Below are positions 9,141 through 40,822 of a DNA stretch of 64,000 bases, one piece after another. The stretch's first letter is position 1, and every line of letters begins with the position of its first letter. Origin of the DNA: Nosocomiicoccus ampullae (GTDB taxonomy: Bacteria; Bacillota; Bacilli; Staphylococcales; Salinicoccaceae); contig NZ_CP079110.1 of assembly GCF_019357495.1 (NCBI RefSeq), positions 1,426,001-1,490,000 of the forward strand, read 5' to 3'. The notes beneath the pieces are model-generated. The model had not been told where the DNA came from. It did not search any database and saw nothing but the letters and a program-made list of their open reading frames with translations. Made by a program: the position numbers and the translations under genes.

Positions 9141-12100
9141 TTAGTCCTCTTTACGTCTTCTAGTTCCTGCAAGCATTGAAGTACCAATTAATAGAAGTGC
9201 AGTAGCACTTAATGCAGTACCATTATTAGTTTCACCAGTTTCAGGTAAAGTGTTCTCTTTTACTTCACCATGATCATTAGTTGATTTTGGTGTTTCATTT
9301 TGAACATTCTCACTTACAACTGGTTTACTTGGTTGTACTGGTGTGTCTTCTGGTTCACCCGGTTCATTTGGTGTTTCATCTGAATCTTCTGGTGTATCTT
9401 CTGATTCACCTGGTTCATTTGGTGTTTCATCTGAATCTTCTGGTGTGTCTTCTGATTCACCTGGTTCTTCTGATGTCTCACCTGAATCTTCTGGTGTATC
9501 TTCTGGTTCACCTGGTTCATTTGGTGTTTCATCTGAATCTTCTGGTGTATCTTCTGGTTCACCTGGTTCATTTGGTGTTTCATCTGAATCTTCTGGTGTA
9601 TCTTCTGATTCACCTGGTTCATTTGGTGTTTCATCTGAATCTTCTGGTGTGCCTTCTGGTTCACCCGGTTCATTTGGTGTTTCATCTGAATCTTCTGGTG
9701 TATCTTCAGATCCATTTGTACCACAATTACATGGAATAATTATAGACGTTCCGTCACTAAATTCAATGACTGTATTGTTATTTTCATCTCTGTAATTTCC
9801 TGTTATAAAGATGGACTTACCATCCTTACCTCCAGGTATAACTACAGTAGATCCATCACTGAACTCTAATGTAATATTACCGTCTTTATCTGTTTTTTGG
9901 CTTATAACTGTAATTGATTCACCATCTTGTCCATCTACTCCATCTTTGCCGTCTTTACCATGTCGAATATCGAATTCATTTAGCTTATTACCATTACCAT
10001 CTTTAACAATAATAGTATATCCAAGCTCATTCTTATTCTCATCGTAAATTGTTTCAGTTTCAACAGTTGGTGTACCAACATCTTTTCCATCTCTACCGTT
10101 GTAAATATCATATTCATTAACAATGTTTCCATCGCCATCTCTGATAATGATATGAACACCAGTCACATCGCCATTTTCATCTTTGATTTCATTTGAATCA
10201 ATAGATGGTGTCTTACCATCTTTTCCTTTTAACCATTCAAAGAAATCATCAATTGTTCCTGTATGACCTTGTTCTAGCCATAATTCATAAGCAGATTTAC
10301 CGTCTTTTCCATTAGTTGTTGGAAGTTTTCCAATGTTTATAGTCTTACCATCGTTATACACTAATACGACTTCATTATTAACATTAACAATAACATTTTT
10401 AATCACTGACTCTGAAGGTAGTTGTCCTAATTTTTCTTTACTACCATCTTCACGTTCTACAATAATGTTATTGTTTTGATCAATAAAGATATCATTTACA
10501 TTTGAGTTTGTAATTCCATTATCTTTACCTTCTTTGCCGTCAGCTCCATCTTTTCCGTCTTGGCCATTATAAATAATTCCTCGATCTAACTCTACTTTTG
10601 TTTCTTTATCGCGGAAGATAAATTCTTTTCCAATTTCTTTACCATTAGAATCTAAGACTGGACGTACTTCCACATCAACAGATTGACCATCTTTTCCATC
10701 TTTACCGTCAGCACCATCTTTACCACTGTAGATAATTCCACGGTCTAACTCTGCATTTGTTTCTTTGTCACGGAAGATAAGCTCTTGCCCGATCACTTTA
10801 CCATTAGAATCTAGGACTGGACGTACTTCCACATCGACAGATTGACCATCTTTTCCGTCTTGACCGTCAGCACCATCTTTACCATCTCTGCCATGGTAAA
10901 TTGTAGTTTCATCTAGAACTTTTCCTGATTCATCAGTAAAGATTAATCTCTCTCCAATTACATTACCGTCTTTGTCTTTAACTTCTTTAGTTTCAACATT
11001 TGGAGTCTGTCCGTCTTTACCATCAGCTCCGTCTTCACCGTCAACACCATCTTTACCATCTTGACCGTCTCTAACAAAGATTTCTTCTGTTTCACCAGTC
11101 TCAGGGTTAGTAATGATGAGTGTATATCCTGGATTTTCTGGATCTTCACTTGGTACGACTTCGATATTCGGAGTCTGTCCGTCTTTACCATCAGCTCCAT
11201 CTTTACCATCACGGACTGTATTACGGCTAACTTCGTTGCCTTCTGGGTCTACAACAACAATGTCATACGTGCCGTCATCATTGTTTTCAACACGGACTGT
11301 GTTGCCGTCTTTACCGTCAACACCATCTTTACCGTCTTGGCCGTCTCTAACAAAGATTTCTTCTGTTTCACCAGTCTCAGGGTTAGTAATGACGATTGTA
11401 TATCCTGGGTTTTCTGGATCTTCACTTGGTACGACTTCGATATTTGGAGTCTGTCCGTCTTTACCATCAGCTCCGTCTTCACCGTCAACGCCGTCTTTAC
11501 CGTCTTGGCCATCTCTAACAAAGATTTCTTCTGTTTCACCAGTCTCAGGGTTAGTAATGACGATTGTATATCCTGGATTTTCTGGATCTTCACTTGGTAC
11601 GACTTCGATATTTGGAGTCTGTCCGTCTTTACCATCAGCTCCATCTTTACCATCACGGACTGTATTACGGCTAACTTCGTTGCCTTCTGGGTCTACAACA
11701 ACAATGTCATACGTGCCGTCATCATTGTTTTCAACACGGACTGTGTTGCCGTCTTTACCGTCAACACCATCTTTACCGTCTTGGCCGTCTCTAACAAAGA
11801 TTTCTTCTGTTTCACCAGTCTCAGGGTTAGTAATGACGATTGTATATCCTGGGTTTTCTGGGTCTTCACTTGGTACGACTTCGATATTCGGAGTCTGTCC
11901 GTCTTTACCATCAGCTCCATCTTTACCATCACGGACTGTATTACGGCTAACTTCGTTGCCTTCTGGGTCTACAACAACAATGTCATACGTGCCGTCATCA
12001 TTGTTTTCAACACGGACTGTGTTGCCGTCTTTACCGTCAACACCATCTTTACCGTCTTGGCCGTCTCTAACAAAGATTTCTTCTGTTTCACCAGTCTCAG

Positions 12101-15100
12101 GGTTAGTAATGATGAGTGTATATCCTGGGTTTTCTGGATCTTCACTTGGTACGACTTCGATATTTGGAGTCTGTCCGTCTTTACCATCAGCTCCGTCTTC
12201 ACCGTCAACGCCGTCTTTACCGTCTTGGCCATCTCTAACAAAGATTTCTTCTGTTTCACCAGTCTCAGGGTTAGTAATGATGAGTGTATATCCTGGGTTT
12301 TCTGGATCTTCACTTGGTACGACTTCGATATTCGGAGTCTGTCCGTCTTTACCGTCAACGCCGTCTTTACCATCTTGACCGTCTCTAACAAAGATTTCTT
12401 CTGTTTCACCAGTCTCAGGGTTAGTAATGACGATTGTATATCCTGGATTTTCTGGATCTTCACTTGGTACGACTTCGATATTTGGAGTCTGTCCGTCTTT
12501 ACCATCAGCTCCATCTTTACCATCACGGACTGTATTACGGCTAACTTCGTTGCCTTCTGGGTCTACAACAACAATGTCATACGTGCCGTCATCATTGTTT
12601 TCAACACGGACTGTGTTGCCGTCTTTACCGTCAACACCATCTTTACCGTCTTGGCCGTCTCTAACAAAGATTTCTTCTGTTTCACCAGTCTCAGGGTTAG
12701 TAATGACGATTGTATATCCTGGATTTTCTGGATCTTCACTTGGTACGACTTCGATATTTGGAGTCTGTCCGTCTTTACCATCAGCTCCATCTTTACCATC
12801 ACGGACTGTATTACGGCTAACTTCGTTGCCTTCTGGGTCTACAACAACAATGTCATACGTGCCGTCATCATTGTTTTCAACACGGACTGTGTTGCCGTCT
12901 TTACCGTCAACACCATCTTTACCGTCTTGGCCGTCTCTAACAAAGATTTCTTCTGTTTCACCAGTCTCAGGGTTAGTAATGACGATTGTATATCCTGGGT
13001 TTTCTGGGTCTTCACTTGGTACAACTTCGATATTTGGAGTCTGTCCGTCTTTACCATCAGCTCCGTCTTCACCGTCAACGCCGTCTTTACCGTCTTGGCC
13101 ATCTCTAACAAAGATTTCTTCTGTTTCACCAGTCTCAGGGTTAGTAATGATGAGTGTATATCCTGGATTTTCTGGATCTTCACTTGGTACGACTTCGATA
13201 TTTGGAGTCTGTCCGTCTTTACCATCAGCTCCATCTTTACCATCACGGACTGTATTACGGCTAACTTCGTTGCCTTCTGGGTCTACAACAACAATGTCAT
13301 ACGTGCCGTCATCATTGTTTTCAACACGGACTGTGTTGCCGTCTTTACCGTCAACGCCGTCTTTACCATCTTGACCGTCTTTAACTTCACCTGACGCAAT
13401 TGGATCTTGACTTGTATCTGGTTGACCAGTCTTAGGATCTACTGGATAGAACTTGATTGTTGTTGTTCCATCTTCTCCTTTTTCTACTACTGGAGCATAT
13501 GTTTGACCGTCTTTTCCGTCTTCACCGTCAACACCGTCTTTACCATCTTGACCGTCTTTAACTGTTGTTTCTGTTGTTGATCCATCTGGGTTTGTCACAA
13601 CAATTGTATGTGTTCCGTCTTCGTTGTCTCTAACTTCTACTTCTGGTGACTTACCATCTTGACCGTCTTTAACTGTTGTTTCTGTTGTTGATCCATCTGG
13701 GTTTGTCACAACAATTGTATGTGTTCCGTCTTCGTTGTCTCTAACTTCTACTTCTGGTGACTTACCATCTTGGCCGTCTTTAACTGTTGTTTCTGTTGTT
13801 GATCCATCTGGGTTTGTCACAACAATTGTATGTGTTCCGTCTTCGTTGTCTCTAACTTCTACTTCTGGTGACTTACCATCTTGGCCGTCTTTAACTTCAC
13901 CTGTTGCGATTGGGTCTTGACTTGTATCTGGTTCACCAGTCTTAGGATCTACTGGATAGAACTTGATTGTTGTTGTTCCATCTTCTCCTTTTTCTACTAC
14001 TGGAGCATATGTCTGACCGTCTTCACCATCAGCTCCGTCTTCACCGTCAACGCCGTCTTTACCATCTTGACCGTCTTTAACTTCACCTGACGCAATTGGA
14101 TCTTGACTTGTATCTGGTTGACCAGTCTTAGGATCTACTGGATAGAACTTGATTGTTGTTGTTCCATCTTCTCCTTTTTCTACTACTGGAGCATATGTTT
14201 GACCGTCTTTTCCGTCTTCACCGTCAACACCGTCTTTACCATCTTGACCGTCTTTAACTTCGCCTGTTGCGATTGGGGCTTGACTTGTATCTGGTTCACC
14301 AGTCTTAGGATCTACTGGATAGAACTTGATTGTTGTTGTTCCATCTTCTCCTTTTTCTACTACTGGAGCATATGTTTGACCGTCTTTTCCGTCTTCACCG
14401 TCAACACCGTCTTTACCATCTTGACCGTCTTTAACTTCGCCTGTTGCGATTGGGGCTTGACTTGTATCTGGTTCACCAGTCTTAGGATCTACTGGATAGA
14501 ACTTGATTGTTGTTGTTCCATCTTCTCCTTTTTCTACTACTGGAGCATATGTTTGACCGTCTTTTCCGTCTTCACCGTCAACACCGTCTTTACCATCTTG
14601 ACCGTCTTTAACTTCGCCTGTTGCGATTGGGGCTTGACTTGTATCTGGTTCACCAGTCTTAGGATCTACTGGATAGAACTTGATTGTTGTTGTTCCATCT
14701 TCTCCTTTTTCTACTACTGGAGCATATGTTTGACCGTCTTTTCCGTCTTCACCGTCAACGCCGTCTTTACCATCTTGACCGTCTTTAACTTCGCCTGTTG
14801 CGATTGGGGCTTGACTTGTATCTGGTTCACCAGTCTTAGGATCTACTGGATAGAACTTGATTGTTGTTGTTCCATCTTCTCCTTTTTCTACTACTGGAGC
14901 ATATGTTTGACCGTCTTTACCATCAGCTCCGTCTTTACCGTCAGGAATAAATTCTGTTTTTTCAGTTCCATCAATCTGATTACCTTTTGAGTCTGTTTCC
15001 CATACCGTAACATATACTCCGGTACGACCATCTTTAGTTCCTCTTTCTTGAGTAATAACTGAAGAGTTACCATCTTTTCCATCTTTAATAATTGCTTTTT

Positions 15101-17429
15101 GCGGTTCATCTTCACCCGGATTTTTAATAAAGATAGTTTTTGTGCCATCTCCGTTATCTATAACTTCTACCTCTGGTGACTCACCATCTTCACCTTTATC
15201 GCCTTTTTCACCCTTAGCTCCATCTGGGACAAAGAATTTATCAATTTCTTCATTAGTCTCTGAATTTCTAATTGTAATCCAGCTACCATCTTTTCCTTCA
15301 TCATTCTTACCTCTGACTACATCGGTTTTAATAGATGGTGTTCGTCCATCTCGAGGTACAATAGTTTTACCTGGTTGACTTGTTTTACCATCAACTGTCG
15401 CAGTAGCTGTGATAGTTTCACCTTGTTTTAAAGTATAGTCAGGTAATGTAGTACTGAATCTACCAGAATCATCAGATTTTGTTGTATAAGTTTTACCACC
15501 AACATTAATTTGTATATCTGCATTAGGTACTGACTCACCAGTAATAGTATTTTCTCCAGAAAGTTTTGGATCTACAATTGGTGGTTTAGGTGCTTCATCT
15601 TCACTATCTAAGTTACCGATACCTAATTCTACTAATTTATTAGTAGGTGCTTCATTATATGTTTCTTTTATTAGTTTTCCTACATCTTCTCCATCGTAAC
15701 TTACAATAGTATAGATTGTTCCACGTTTACCATTTTTACCTTCTCTAATAGTTCTTTGTTCACCCATAGGTAAATCTTTAGATACTCTATACTCAATTTG
15801 ATATGGTATTTCGTCAACATCTGATATATCATCTCTAAATTCAAATTCTTTTTCTGGGTTACTTGATACTTTAATATAGTGTTGATCTCTAAAGTAGTTA
15901 TCAAAAGTGTCTGGTCTAACTGCTGTACCAGCCACATCTTGAGAATACATTCCGATATTTCCATAGAAACCTAAATCTCCGTTCCAATCTGTTACTGGAA
16001 CACTAAATCTATATTCTATATGACCATCGTTTTTTACTGGAAATTTAGTTATTTCTATAAATGTATTTGACGCATAGCCTGGAGGATAGCCAGGTTTTCC
16101 TCCAATAGACATATTGTGATTAGAAACAATTGGATTTTTTGTCCCTGTTATAGTCGACTGGCCTTTAATTACTGAAGGCACTTTATAAGCACTACCAAAA
16201 TTTAACCCCCCAACTACAGCACGGTGGGCACTTTCTGTAGCATTTTTATCAACTTTCCATTTGACTGTAAAATCCATATTATTTGTCGAATGATTTGGTA
16301 CTGCTTCAACAGTGTAATAGGCTGGATATTGATTTAAAGCAGTAGATCCTTCTCCATTAATTGTAACACCTGTATTTGGATCTATTTTTTTAAGGTTAAA
16401 TTGTTCTCCTATTTGCTCTAATGAATCATAAATTTGATTTGGATTTTCTCTTACAGCAAAAGAAGTAAATGCATTTTTTTGCTGACTCGCATATTCTAAG
16501 CCTGCATAAATAACAGAATTATATAAGTCATTTGCTGAAATAGTATTGTAATCAACATCTAGATTATTCATAATACCTTCAACATCTTCGCTTTCATAAA
16601 TTTCTGAAAGCATTGTTTCTACCATTTCTTTACGATTGGTTGTTGCATTATATTTATCTATAAATTCTTGAGGTGCTGCTGATTTTTCTCTTTCATCTTT
16701 GTCATTATTATATAGAGCAACTTTTACATCTTCTTTAGATTTTACAATTTCTTCTTGTTCTTCTAATGATTTATCTTTAGATACTTCTTTTTTAGGAAGT
16801 GCTTCTAATTCTTCTTGAGGTGATTCTTGTGTTTCATCAGATTCTTGTTGTGAGTTTTCATTTTGTTTTTCTTCAACTGGCTCTTTTGGAGTTTCTCTTT
16901 GGGGTTGTTCTTTTGTTTGATCATCTTCTACTTTAACTTCTGGATTTTGATTTTCCTCTGTTTCAAGTGGCTGTTGTTCTGGAGTGTTATTTTCATTTGA
17001 CTTTTCTGAAGTTTCTTTTTGAGGCTGCTCTTCTACTTGTTCAGCTTCTACTGAATCTTCTGAGGTTTCGACTTCTTCTGTTTCAAATTTTTGTTCTTCT
17101 GGAGTTGATTGTTCTGTTAGAGATTGATCGTTCTCTTCAGTTTCTTGTTTTGATGTCTCTTCAAAATTATCCACTGAATCATTTACTATATCTTTTTGTG
17201 TTTCTTCAGTGCTATCTGGTGTTGTTTCAAGAGTTTCTTGATCGGCATTGGTTGTAACTTCTAAGTTGTTCTCTTCATCTGTTTTTGCACTTTCAATTTG
17301 TTCACTTGCTTCTACATCCTGACCTAAAAATAGTAATGAACCAATCAGGATAGATGCGGTTCCAACTGTAAATCTTCTAATCGAATATTTGTTTAATCGA
17401 TTAGGAATAAAATCGTACTTTTTTCCCAT
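9141..17429 (-). CDS. Giant YSIRK/LPXTG wall-anchored protein with collagen-like spacers
   Basis: 2762 residues, exported and sortase-anchored. Residues 1-42 are a YSIRK-type signal peptide ([17 protein letters not shown]). An acidic Glu/Gln/Ser/Thr-rich stretch runs to about 245. A non-repetitive region (about 250-640) is the likely ligand-binding head, but I do not recognise it. A bacterial Ig-like module follows (about 645-720, [13 protein letters not shown]). From about 755 to 2400 the protein is built from four repeat types separated by Gly-X-Asp collagen-like segments ([13 protein letters not shown]). Seven 16-residue [14 protein letters not shown] units span the wall. LPETG at about 2727, a hydrophobic helix and RRRKED end it. 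AAGGAGAGG precedes the ATG. It sits between folP and cysK, adjacent genes in S. aureus. It is probably an adhesin or biofilm protein. Confidence 0.93.
9343..9714. repeat. 48-bp tandem repeats (wall-spanning region)
   Basis: Seven tandem copies of a 48-bp unit inside the surface gene encode variants of [14 protein letters not shown] plus two residues. Copies differ at few positions (PE/SE, one GETSEE variant), so copy number is likely to vary between strains. Confidence 0.9.
11010..13337. repeat. Surface protein repeats B (150/168 bp) and N (126 bp)
   Basis: Ten B units (start [19 protein letters not shown], 50 or 56 residues) are interleaved with six N units (start [17 protein letters not shown], 42 residues), giving a 276-bp B+N super-unit. 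The order is N-B-B-N-B-N-B-B-B-N-B-N-B-B-N-B. B copies differ mainly by TIV or TLI at one site, and DNA identity between copies is very high, which points to recent duplication or homogenisation. Confidence 0.9.
13539..13871. repeat. Surface protein repeat C, three 111-bp copies
   Basis: Three adjacent, nearly identical 111-bp units encode 37 residues beginning [18 protein letters not shown] and ending KDGQDGK. They lie between two type-A units. Confidence 0.9.
14202..14909. repeat. Surface protein repeat A, four identical 177-bp copies
   Basis: Four consecutive 59-residue units beginning [19 protein letters not shown] and ending [10 protein letters not shown] are identical in protein and almost so in DNA. 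Three more type-A units with small changes ([12 protein letters not shown]) lie between about 13380 and 14201, making seven in total. Confidence 0.9.
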
Positions 17430-31054: not shown

Positions 31055-32029
31055 TTAGTCAAATAAACGACTCACTGAACGCTCTTCGTGAATACGAGTA
31101 ATTGCTTCAGCAAGGAGTTCTCCGACAGAAAGTTGTTTAATTTTATCGATTTGTTTTTCTTCTGGTAATTGAATTGAGTTTGTAACGATAACTTCTTTGA
31201 TTTGTGATTCACTTAAATTTTGAATTGCTTTACCAGATAATACTGGGTGTGAACAACATACATATACTTCTTTTGCGCCTTCTTCGATTAACTTATCTGC
31301 AGCAATTTTAATTGTGCCACCTGTGTCGATAATGTCATCGATAACGATTGCTGTTTTACCTTTAATATCTCCAACGATACTCATAACTTCCGCTACGTTT
31401 GCGCGTGGGCGACGTTTGTCGATAATCGCGATTGGTGATCCGAGTCTTTCAGCCATGCGACGTGCACGAGTTACCCCACCGTGGTCTGGTGACACGATAA
31501 CGACTTCTTCTTCATAGTTTAAGTCGTGTTTTTCATCTTCAAAGTATTTTGTAATTAACGGCACACTCGTTAAGTGGTCGATTGGAATGTCGAAAAACCC
31601 TTGAATTTGTGCAGCATGTAAATCGATAGATACTACGCGGTCTGCACCTGTAGTTTCAAGTAAGTTTGCAACAAGTTTTGCTGTGATTGGTTCACGTGGA
31701 CGTGATTTTCTGTCTTGACGTGCATAACCGTAGTACGGAATGACTAAGTTAATACGGCGTGCTGACGCGCGTTTTAACGCATCTACCATAATAAGTAATT
31801 CCATTAAATGATCGTTCACTGGTTCTGAAGTTGGTTGTACAACGAATATATCTTTCCCACGAACACTTTCTAAAATGTCGACTTGAACTTCTTTGTCAGA
31901 GAAACGATTCACTTTACATTTCCCAAGTTCGACTCCTAAATGTTTAGCGATTTCTTCAGCAAGTGGTTCATTTGCAGATAAAGTAAATACCTTCATATTA
32001 TCTTCAGGGTTTTTTTGGTTATTTGTCAT
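31055..32029 (-). CDS. prs: Ribose-phosphate pyrophosphokinase
   Basis: Makes PRPP from ribose-5-phosphate and ATP for nucleotide, His and Trp synthesis. About 324 residues with the divalent-cation site [14 protein letters not shown], the flexible loop around [15 protein letters not shown] and the PRPP loop [12 protein letters not shown]. The ATG at 32029 follows TTGGAGG; an internal ATG 11 codons later could also serve. It begins 15 bases after glmU, the conserved glmU-prs pair. Confidence 0.97.
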
Positions 32030-32044
32030 AATATCCTCCAACGA

Positions 32045-33157
32045 TTAGTTTTTATAATAATTTTCTTTAGTCGTTTGACGCTCACGTGCGATTGCTAGAC
32101 TGTCTGATGGTACGTCGTCAGTTACTGTGCTTCCTGCAGCAATCACTGATCGTTCACCAATTTCAATTGGCGCCATCATATTTGTGTTACAGCCGATAAA
32201 TGCATCATCTTTAATAATTGTTTTATACTTATTCACACCATCGTAATTTACTGTAATAGATCCACAACCAATGTTTGTACGCTTTCCGACCTCTGCATCT
32301 CCAATATAACTTAAATGAGACACTTTTGCACCATCATCTACGAAAGATTTTTTCGTTTCAACGAAGTTTCCGATTTTTACAGATTCACCAAGCTTTGTGC
32401 CTGGTCGAATTTGTGCAAATGGACCAATTGAAGTCCCATCTCCAACTTCTGAATCTGTAATGACTGAATGTCTAATTTGTACATTATTTCCAACTCTAGC
32501 ATTCGTTAATTCGCTGTCACCTCTGATTTCACAGTTTTCTCCGATAACTGTTTCTCCTTCAATAACAGCACCCGGATAAATGATGGTATCCATTCCAATC
32601 TCTACTGTGCTATCAATATACGTCTGTTCTGGGTTAATAATCGTCACACCATTATCCATTAATTTGTCTAAAATTACCGTTTGGTATAAGTAACGTGCGT
32701 TTGCGAGTTCTTTTCTCGTTTCGACAATAAATACTCCAAAGTCCGCTTCAACTGCCCCAATTTGTTTTGCCATATTATCAATCGTATCTAACTTAAGATT
32801 AGACACTTCTTTATGAGAAGCTATTAACACTTGACCGTCGACCACGTAAATATTGTCCATATCTTCTTCGTATAAACTTTGGTACATTTCATTAAAAATA
32901 AGTGGTGAACGACTGTCGACAAATACTGTATCTTGTTTTTCTAATTGAGTTGCGTCTGTAAGCACTGGATACGATTCAAACGTCTCATCTAACCCTTCTT
33001 TTGACGTTAGGTAAATATCATAAACGCCTGAAAGTTTTAGCTGATTAATAATATGTTGTAATATCGTTGTGCCACATAATTTGTGTAGTGTTGTATGTGT
33101 GTTTGATTTCATTAAAGATGTATCAACATCTGTTAAAATGACTGCTTGCCTTTGCAT
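32045..33157 (-). CDS. glmU: GlmU-like protein: acetyltransferase domain intact, uridyltransferase domain degenerate
   Basis: Normal GlmU acetylates GlcN-1-P and then joins it to UTP, giving UDP-GlcNAc. This protein has about 370 residues against about 450. The C-terminal left-handed beta-helix (about 170-370) is well kept, including HLSYIGDAEVG with the catalytic histidine and CGSITVNYDGVNKYKT. The N-terminal part still aligns with S. aureus GlmU but lacks the nucleotide-binding signature: LAAGKGTRM reads LTDVDTSLM, the YKVLH lysine is lost (HTTLH), GDTPL reads DGQVL, and about 80 residues are missing. It therefore looks active only as an acetyltransferase. GGAGG precedes the ATG at 33157. 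The spoVG-glmU-prs context is standard, so it is the orthologue. Confidence 0.9.
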   Translation of the reverse strand: MQRQAVILTDVDTSLMKSNTHTTLHKLCGTTILQHIINQLKLSGVYDIYLTSKEGLDETFESYPVLTDATQLEKQDTVFVDSRSPLIFNEMYQSLYEEDMDNIYVVDGQVLIASHKEVSNLKLDTIDNMAKQIGAVEADFGVFIVETRKELANARYLYQTVILDKLMDNGVTIINPEQTYIDSTVEIGMDTIIYPGAVIEGETVIGENCEIRGDSELTNARVGNNVQIRHSVITDSEVGDGTSIGPFAQIRPGTKLGESVKIGNFVETKKSFVDDGAKVSHLSYIGDAEVGKRTNIGCGSITVNYDGVNKYKTIIKDDAFIGCNTNMMAPIEIGERSVIAAGSTVTDDVPSDSLAIARERQTTKENYYKN

Positions 33158-33235
33158 AATATAATATGCCTCCAAAATTGTTTACTTCTTTTACTATTTT
33201 ACAATATTTCTCGGGAAATTTAAAAATATAAAAAA

Positions 33236-33256
33236 GCTAGGGAATTCTGCCCTAGC
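33236..33256 (-). terminator. Terminator after spoVG
   Basis: GCTAGGG/CCCTAGC stem with 7-base loop, T-rich on the minus strand, between spoVG and glmU. Confidence 0.8.
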
Positions 33257-33264
33257 CTTCGTGA

Positions 33265-33573
33265 TTACTCTTCTACTTCTTCGTCTTCATTTACTTCTTC
33301 ATCAGGTTCTACTGGATCTTCAGTTTCTTCATAGACACGCATTACTTCTTCTTGGACATGTTGTCTCATGTCTGAATTAATTGGATGAGCGATATCTCTA
33401 AACTCACCGTCTGCTGTACGTTTACTTGGCATCGCCACGAACATACCATTATTTCCGTCAATTACTCTTAAATCATGCACGACAAACGAATCATCAAAAG
33501 TAATTGATGCTAATGCTTTCATTCGCGTATCCGGATTGTTAACTTTACGTAATCTTACATCTGTGATTTTCAT
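33265..33573 (-). CDS. spoVG: SpoVG, site-specific DNA/RNA-binding regulator
   Basis: 102 residues with the family start [28 protein letters not shown] and the core [20 protein letters not shown]. In Staphylococcus SpoVG is a sigma-B-dependent regulator of capsule, wall and virulence genes. The C-terminus is a long acidic tail ([14 protein letters not shown]). It follows ridA and precedes glmU, the conserved Bacillales order. GAGTCCTCC on the plus strand marks a good RBS. Confidence 0.96.
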
Positions 33574-40048: not shown

Positions 40049-40822
40049 ATGGATGCTTATAAAGTTCGCGAACGTATTAGAAGTGGGCAACATAAGAAAA
40101 CAACTTCTGGACTTGCAAATGATAATGTGCAAGCGAATCTTGTTGTCCTCCCTAAAGAGTATGCATTTGATTTTTTACTTTACGCGATGCGCAATAAAAC
40201 ACCCATTCCAATTATCGAAGTTTTAGAAGATGGTAAATTTAAGAGTCGATACGCAAAAGATTCCGACATTCGCACAGATATTCCGTTTTATAATATTTAC
40301 AAAAATGGTGAACTCGTTGACACAGTCGAGGACGTAAAAGAATTTTGGCAAGATGATTTTGTATCATTTTTAATTGGATGTAGTTTTACGTTTGAAGACG
40401 CGCTTATAAAAGCAAATATCCCACTTAAACATATTGAAGAAAATAAAAACGTTGCGATGTTTAAAACAAATATCCCAACTGAACGCGCAGGAGTATTTCA
40501 TGGAAATATGGTCGTTTCAATGCGCCCAATCAAAAAAGAATTCGTTGACCAGGCTGTTGAAATTACGTCACAGTTTAAAGATATGCACGGCGGGCCAGTA
40601 CATATCGGTGATCCAAGCGCAATCGGTATTACTGATATTAGAACACCTGATTACGGAGAAGCTATTGAACTATCTGAAGATGAAGTTCCTGTATTTTGGG
40701 GATGTGGTGTAACTCCACAAAACGCTATTTTACAAGCGAAGCCACCAATTATGATCAGTCATAAACCAGGATATATGTTTATTACAGATATTAATAACGA
40801 AGCGTTTAAAGATTCGAAATAA
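40049..40822 (+). CDS. DUF1445 putative hydro-lyase (YcsI / D-glutamate cyclase family)
   Basis: 257 residues, the usual length. Family features include VRERIRSGQHKKTTSGLANDN, LVVLPKEYAFDFLLYAMRNK, SFLIGCSFTFEDAL and the C-terminal VFWGCGVTPQNAILQAKPPI and SHKPGYMFITD. The fold is related to mammalian D-glutamate cyclase; bacterial members are annotated only as putative hydro-lyases. The start follows AGGAGAG. It is a single gene on the plus strand between the repeat cassette and a bidirectional terminator. The substrate is unknown. Confidence 0.9.
   Translation: MDAYKVRERIRSGQHKKTTSGLANDNVQANLVVLPKEYAFDFLLYAMRNKTPIPIIEVLEDGKFKSRYAKDSDIRTDIPFYNIYKNGELVDTVEDVKEFWQDDFVSFLIGCSFTFEDALIKANIPLKHIEENKNVAMFKTNIPTERAGVFHGNMVVSMRPIKKEFVDQAVEITSQFKDMHGGPVHIGDPSAIGITDIRTPDYGEAIELSEDEVPVFWGCGVTPQNAILQAKPPIMISHKPGYMFITDINNEAFKDSK

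Follow-up and report, generated by a model that had tools for sequence, protein, structure and literature searches.

A GlmU orthologue apparently reduced to its acetyltransferase in Nosocomiicoccus, with a UAP1-type protein as candidate replacement

The glmU locus and the state of its two domains

The window, a stretch of 64,000 nucleotides from Nosocomiicoccus ampullae (genome G000; an assembly of 1,551,959 bases on two contigs with 99.56% completeness), carries a glmU orthologue that starts with ATG, encodes 370 amino acids and contains no stop inside the frame. The gene is flanked by prs and by a gene that we take, from its sequence, to be spoVG. The neighbour order seen at 31055-33573 is that expected for an orthologous glmU locus, as the first-pass annotation had proposed, and the frame it described as fully open was indeed read through 370 codons. 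That annotation had also kept in view a second complete glmU elsewhere. The genome-wide search returned a single GlmU beta-helix, and no second GlmU was found in the G000 assembly. Two other weak GlmU-like matches, L003 and L005, were rejected as paralogues, their sequences being presumably IspD-like and MobA-like, respectively. Elsewhere in the window, a giant surface protein (2762 aa) with a YSIRK signal, an LPXTG anchor and about 20 collagen-flanked surface repeats is encoded at 9141-17429 on the minus strand, and a member of the D-glutamate cyclase family at 40049-40822 on the plus strand.

Table 1. Features of the glmU locus, in positions of the window
Feature	Position	Strand	Basis
glmU orthologue, acetyltransferase-only in predicted function, 370 aa	32045..33157	-	ORF, alignment, profile searches
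N-terminal uridylyltransferase-domain remnant, residues 1-140, active-site positions lost	32738..33157	-	alignment, model
Helical linker arm, residues 141-168 (helix 148-168 in the model)	32654..32737	-	structure model
C-terminal left-handed beta-helix acetyltransferase domain, residues 169-370, catalytic residues intact	32048..32653	-	Pfam/NCBIfam profiles, residue mapping
Catalytic histidine codon, residue 281 (His363 in E. coli numbering)	32315..32317	-	alignment
spoVG (presumed), neighbour upstream of glmU, conserved synteny	33265..33573	-	position, presumed identity
prs (ribose-phosphate pyrophosphokinase), neighbour downstream of glmU	31055..32041	-	orthologues aligned for tree

The GlmU proteins of close relatives are 450-453 aa long, so that about 80 residues are missing from the window protein, as originally estimated. 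Alignment with full-length GlmUs assigned the loss mainly to a block of about 50 residues, from GYGR through VEEKD, with a second gap of about 13-21 residues ahead of the QLGT motif. Among the uridylyltransferase contacts considered, D105 and N227 are the metal ligands. The contact list was taken from MtGlmU (PMC8386105) and from K25, Q76 and D105 of Haemophilus influenzae GlmU (PMC10128056). In E. coli numbering, the window protein is replaced or deleted at A13, G14, G16, T17, R18, K25, Q76, Q79, G81, T82, D105, G140, E154, N169 and N227, that is, at every mapped active-site position and at more sites than had been listed before. The N169 site alone carries little information, since several intact relatives carry serine there as well. 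The alignment confirmed that LAAGKGTRM reads LTDVDTSLM and that the YKVLH lysine is replaced, namely by threonine. The earlier reading of GDTPL as DGQVL was mis-aligned; the counterpart is DSRSPL, and the conclusion is unchanged. At this place the metal-binding aspartate has become arginine in Nosocomiicoccus, valine in Phocicoccus and phenylalanine in a further genome, G033.

Two further Nosocomiicoccus genomes, at 84% and 97% identity, and the two Phocicoccus genomes, at 62-63%, encode the same architecture in open frames and have lost the same mapped sites, except for one glycine aligned at G81 in Nosocomiicoccus G002. The N-terminal pyrophosphorylase signature (GxGTRM loop, K25, Q76, D105 and N227) is absent from the window protein. 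Its TIGR01173 score was 305.7 bits against an NCBIfam cut-off of 366.85, the match covering model positions 222-448 only, and the Pfam families above their cut-offs were exclusively those of the beta-helix. Judged from these replacements and deletions, the uridylyltransferase function of this GlmU has almost certainly been lost.

The acetyltransferase domain presents the opposite picture. All seven positions checked (H363, K351, Y366, N377, N386, K392 and R440), comprising the catalytic histidine and substrate residues, are kept, which bears out the initial description of a complete acetyltransferase beta-helix. The window protein thus resembles bifunctional GlmU (TIGR01173; S. aureus GlmU, PDB 9DQF and 9DR4) in its locus, orthology, complete C-terminal beta-helix and catalytic residues, and differs from it by the lack of some 80 residues and of the whole uridylyltransferase active site. 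The best explanation is that the gene is a true glmU orthologue whose product is predicted to be a monofunctional glucosamine-1-phosphate N-acetyltransferase.

Candidate sources of UDP-GlcNAc

The first-pass annotation had reasoned that a separate uridyltransferase must exist, either UAP1-like or a stand-alone GlmU N-domain. No match to PF00483, the nucleotidyltransferase family of GlmU-N, GalU and RmlA, was found in G000, whereas all 14 control genomes matched. One UDPGP-family protein, P0002, is encoded at about 167.0-168.1 kb of G000:C1, with a PF01704 score of 135.9 bits (cut-off 22). It was closest to UAP1-type enzymes: the comparison with human UAP1/AGX1 gave an E-value of 1.5e-55, with similar values for fungal UAP1s, versus 1e-14 to 1e-18 or weaker for plant, fungal or human UDP-glucose pyrophosphorylases. 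P0002 accordingly belongs to the UDPGP family with an affinity for UAP over UGP. P0002 has retained the motifs GGQGTRL, PKG and SPLKN, which hold the catalytic residues R91, K98 and K354; the GTR, PKG and SPLKN motifs are present in all UDPGP orthologues compared, with APLKN in G033. In Aspergillus fumigatus UAP1, Arg141, Lys148 and Lys437 are functionally important, and Lys437 stands in for the second metal of GlmU (PMC8386105). From the motifs, we infer that R91, K98 and K354 are the equivalents of these three residues. The predicted separate enzyme therefore has a strong sequence-based candidate in P0002, next to GlmR (see below).

GlmM is present in G000 and would make GlcN-1-P. The 370-aa protein would acetylate GlcN-1-P to GlcNAc-1-P using acetyl-CoA, and P0002 would join GlcNAc-1-P and UTP to give UDP-GlcNAc. 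In eukaryotes, the acetyltransferase is a GNA1-type enzyme acting on GlcN-6-P, unlike the pathway proposed here, in which the GlmU beta-helix would act on GlcN-1-P. As with eukaryotic UAP1/AGX1 (PF01704; PDB 1JV1, 2YQC and 4BMA), acetylation and uridylylation would be placed on separate proteins, and P0002 is itself UAP-like, sharing the conserved motifs for one Arg and two Lys. We estimate a probability of roughly 80% that the GlmU uridylyltransferase has been displaced by this UAP1-type UDPGP protein, which would presumably have UDP-GlcNAc pyrophosphorylase activity in vivo and carry the essential flux. Since no PF00483 enzyme at all was found, G000 has no GalU, and UDPGP may serve both the supply of UDP-GlcNAc and that of UDP-glucose, if any of the latter is made. 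In Nosocomiicoccus G002, a GalU-like match with an internal stop codon was noted at G002:C1:3751-4533; it could represent a gene remnant, an effect of the reading frame or contamination.

The chief rival substitute is GlmR (YvcK), encoded in G000 at G000:C1:264148-265077 (P0003; TIGR01826 356 bits, cut-off 196) and carrying the VADDGG motif, with the Asp-Asp pair of the CofD/YvcK family. The GlmR proteins of Listeria, S. aureus and B. subtilis convert UTP and GlcNAc-1-P to UDP-GlcNAc in vitro (PMC10128056). GlmR could thus carry the UDP-GlcNAc flux alone or share it, supplying the nucleotide sugar independently of GlmU, although it is an unrelated protein and accessory where GlmU is intact (PMC10128056). 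If GlmR were the main GlcNAc-1-P uridylyltransferase, UDPGP would be secondary or otherwise employed, e.g., in UDP-glucose synthesis, for which it might be required in a genome without GalU. However, although conservation of GlmR throughout the Firmicutes has been described (PMC10128056), nearly all of them keep GlmU-N, with no other acetyltransferase-only GlmU in a class sample of 399 genomes, and the UDPGP protein is specifically UAP-like, not UGP-like. We regard a leading role of GlmR as improbable, at a chance of about one in eight, and as a minority reading beside displacement by the UAP1-type protein.

The N-terminal remnant

Nei-Gojobori estimates of omega for the remnant N-domain were 0.05-0.10 among the Nosocomiicoccus sequences and 0.145 for the pair of Phocicoccus species; the C-domain gave 0.014-0.07. 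The ratio of dN in the N-domain to that in the C-domain was 1.6-2.3 in these comparisons, as against 0.65-1.35 within genera g2 and g4, which have an intact GlmU; one close pair reached 7, a value resting on very few changes. The constraint on the remnant, as read from these substitution rates, is relaxed yet clearly present. Of the initial description as domain decay, the loss of the active site stands, but the remaining part is still under purifying selection.

Structure modelling, which had been proposed at the outset, was performed with AlphaFold2 as a monomer (mean pLDDT 73). Residues 1-97 formed a compact confident core, residues 98-139 were poor, and the linker helix and the first half of the beta-helix were confident; the last 90 residues or so were poorly modelled despite their highly conserved sequence. 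The best Foldseek matches of the model were the GlmUs of S. aureus and S. pneumoniae. Because it is still under purifying selection, the remnant probably has a structural function; it may be retained for folding, for stability of the trimer or for regulation.

The selection on the remnant and its compact modelled fold would also agree with a uridylyltransferase whose active site has been re-modelled. This is very unlikely, as the nucleotide-loop glycines, the catalytic Arg and Lys, both metal ligands and the GYGR-to-EEKD block are gone, and the remnants of Nosocomiicoccus and Phocicoccus differ at about half of their positions. Two further readings, that the frame reflects a mistake in sequencing or assembly and that it is a paralogue while the genuine GlmU lies in another place, found no support beyond the state of the G000 assembly, which has two contigs and falls short of formal completeness. 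They are refuted unless a copy lies in the missing 0.4%: open frames of this type in four other genomes (62-97% identity) speak against error (as first maintained) and against chance, the five genomes stem from several projects and include strains CIP 107946 and CCM 8667, the locus is conserved, and G000 has only one GlmU beta-helix.

A possible intermediate was seen in the sister genus g6. Its GlmUs (L012, L013 and L019) keep the motifs otherwise but carry T17K together with N227D, and score 52-75 bits with PF00483 versus 67-99 in other relatives. Their N/C dN ratio is raised (2.1-4.9), UDPGP is present, and no other PF00483 protein was found in this genus. The pattern looks like relaxed constraint preceding loss, though the g6 enzyme may well be active.

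Distribution of the loss and history of UDPGP

The order-wide survey covered 152 genomes of at least 90% completeness, with TIGR01173 as the GlmU cut-off. It was passed by 147 genomes, and the failures were the window genome, G002, both Phocicoccus genomes and G033. The G033 protein (L066) keeps the acetyltransferase, and its N-domain is about 20% identical to the two sequences compared; the same sites are lost, with the exception of E154 and Q79, where a Glu and a Gln align. In the tree of the GlmU C-domain and Prs, Nosocomiicoccus and Phocicoccus were united with a UFBoot of 100, and g6 was their sister genus (87). The family that contains all three had a UFBoot of 89 and leaves out G033, which belongs to another family. 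The distribution is most simply read as two independent losses. The loss of GlmU-N is a trait of two sister genera and an independent third lineage, not a single oddity.

In the class sample, 394 of the 399 genomes passed the cut-off, and no other acetyltransferase-only GlmU remained after the failures were re-examined. Among the low-scoring Bacilli, the N-domain is present in G270 and G226, whose GlmU is truncated or divided between contigs; G120 retains its N-domain matches in one frame and scores over the cut-off; G228, G374 and G471 gave no strong GlmU match at all, hence no acetyltransferase-only GlmU. The missing match in G471 is odd, as this genome is in only four contigs. A compact-looking match from a Desulfuromonadales MAG (L100) turned out to be an ordinary full-length GlmU. 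The CC-licensed papers searched held no description of such a loss of GlmU-N, nor of a glmU-locus acetyltransferase combined with a eukaryote-type uridylyltransferase, although the parts are known families.

UDPGP was present in all five genomes below the GlmU cut-off, whereas the 13 similarly small genomes of family f4 and G004 are without UDPGP and keep a complete GlmU. This co-occurrence is consistent with displacement but statistically not strong, because UDPGP occurs in 138 of the 152 genomes and only about two losses are available. No tightening of the selection on UDPGP was apparent following the loss, omega being 0.08-0.12 in Nosocomiicoccus and Phocicoccus versus 0.045-0.093 in relatives.

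The S. aureus UDPGP orthologue, SA1974/SAOUHSC_02423, is an uncharacterised 'putative uridylyltransferase' located between the YdjM and HlyIII genes in a LexA-regulated operon with the SOS box CGAAAATATGTTCG (PMC11442139), and a mutant without SAOUHSC_02423 is viable (PMC5962339). The UDPGP of G000 belongs to the same family and likewise adjoins an HlyIII gene, but SA1974 differs in being LexA-regulated together with the YdjM gene (PMC11442139) and dispensable (PMC5962339). UDPGP loci L037-L065 were compared for a LexA-type box. All f3 loci examined have a box one mismatch from CGAACN4GTTCG, roughly 580-730 bp upstream of the UDPGP frame. In the window's family, UDPGP usually follows a long same-strand gene, presumably a pyrimidine-nucleoside phosphorylase, and has no such box, even in species with an intact GlmU; the G033 locus has neither the box nor that long upstream gene. 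A loss of the SOS box accompanying the loss of GlmU-N was consequently rejected. Since relatives with an intact GlmU share the box-less arrangement, the rewiring of UDPGP came earlier, and we infer that the absence of SOS control preceded the loss of GlmU-N and may have permitted it.

The UDPGP gene would be ancestral in the window's family and the Staphylococcus family, and its redundancy would have let the GlmU uridylyltransferase go, at least twice, in small-genome lineages. A more far-reaching version, which we offer tentatively and consider doubtful, is that an initially non-essential eukaryote-type UAP1, under LexA/SOS control in Staphylococcus, replaced the GlmU uridylyltransferase at least twice independently while the emptied N-domain was kept and acquired a different function without catalysis, for instance in sensing or in docking the UAP1-type enzyme.

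GlmU is considered essential and almost universal among bacteria, and it is pursued as a drug target via both active sites. In the present Gram-positive lineage, which is unremarkable in other respects, one of these sites is missing altogether, and such bacteria are predicted to be unresponsive to inhibitors of the GlmU uridylyltransferase site. The question of redundancy among GlmU-N, GlmR and UDPGP becomes directly testable, and the lineage offers a natural experiment that points to UDP-GlcNAc synthesis as the function of the SOS-regulated 'probable uridylyltransferase' of staphylococci.
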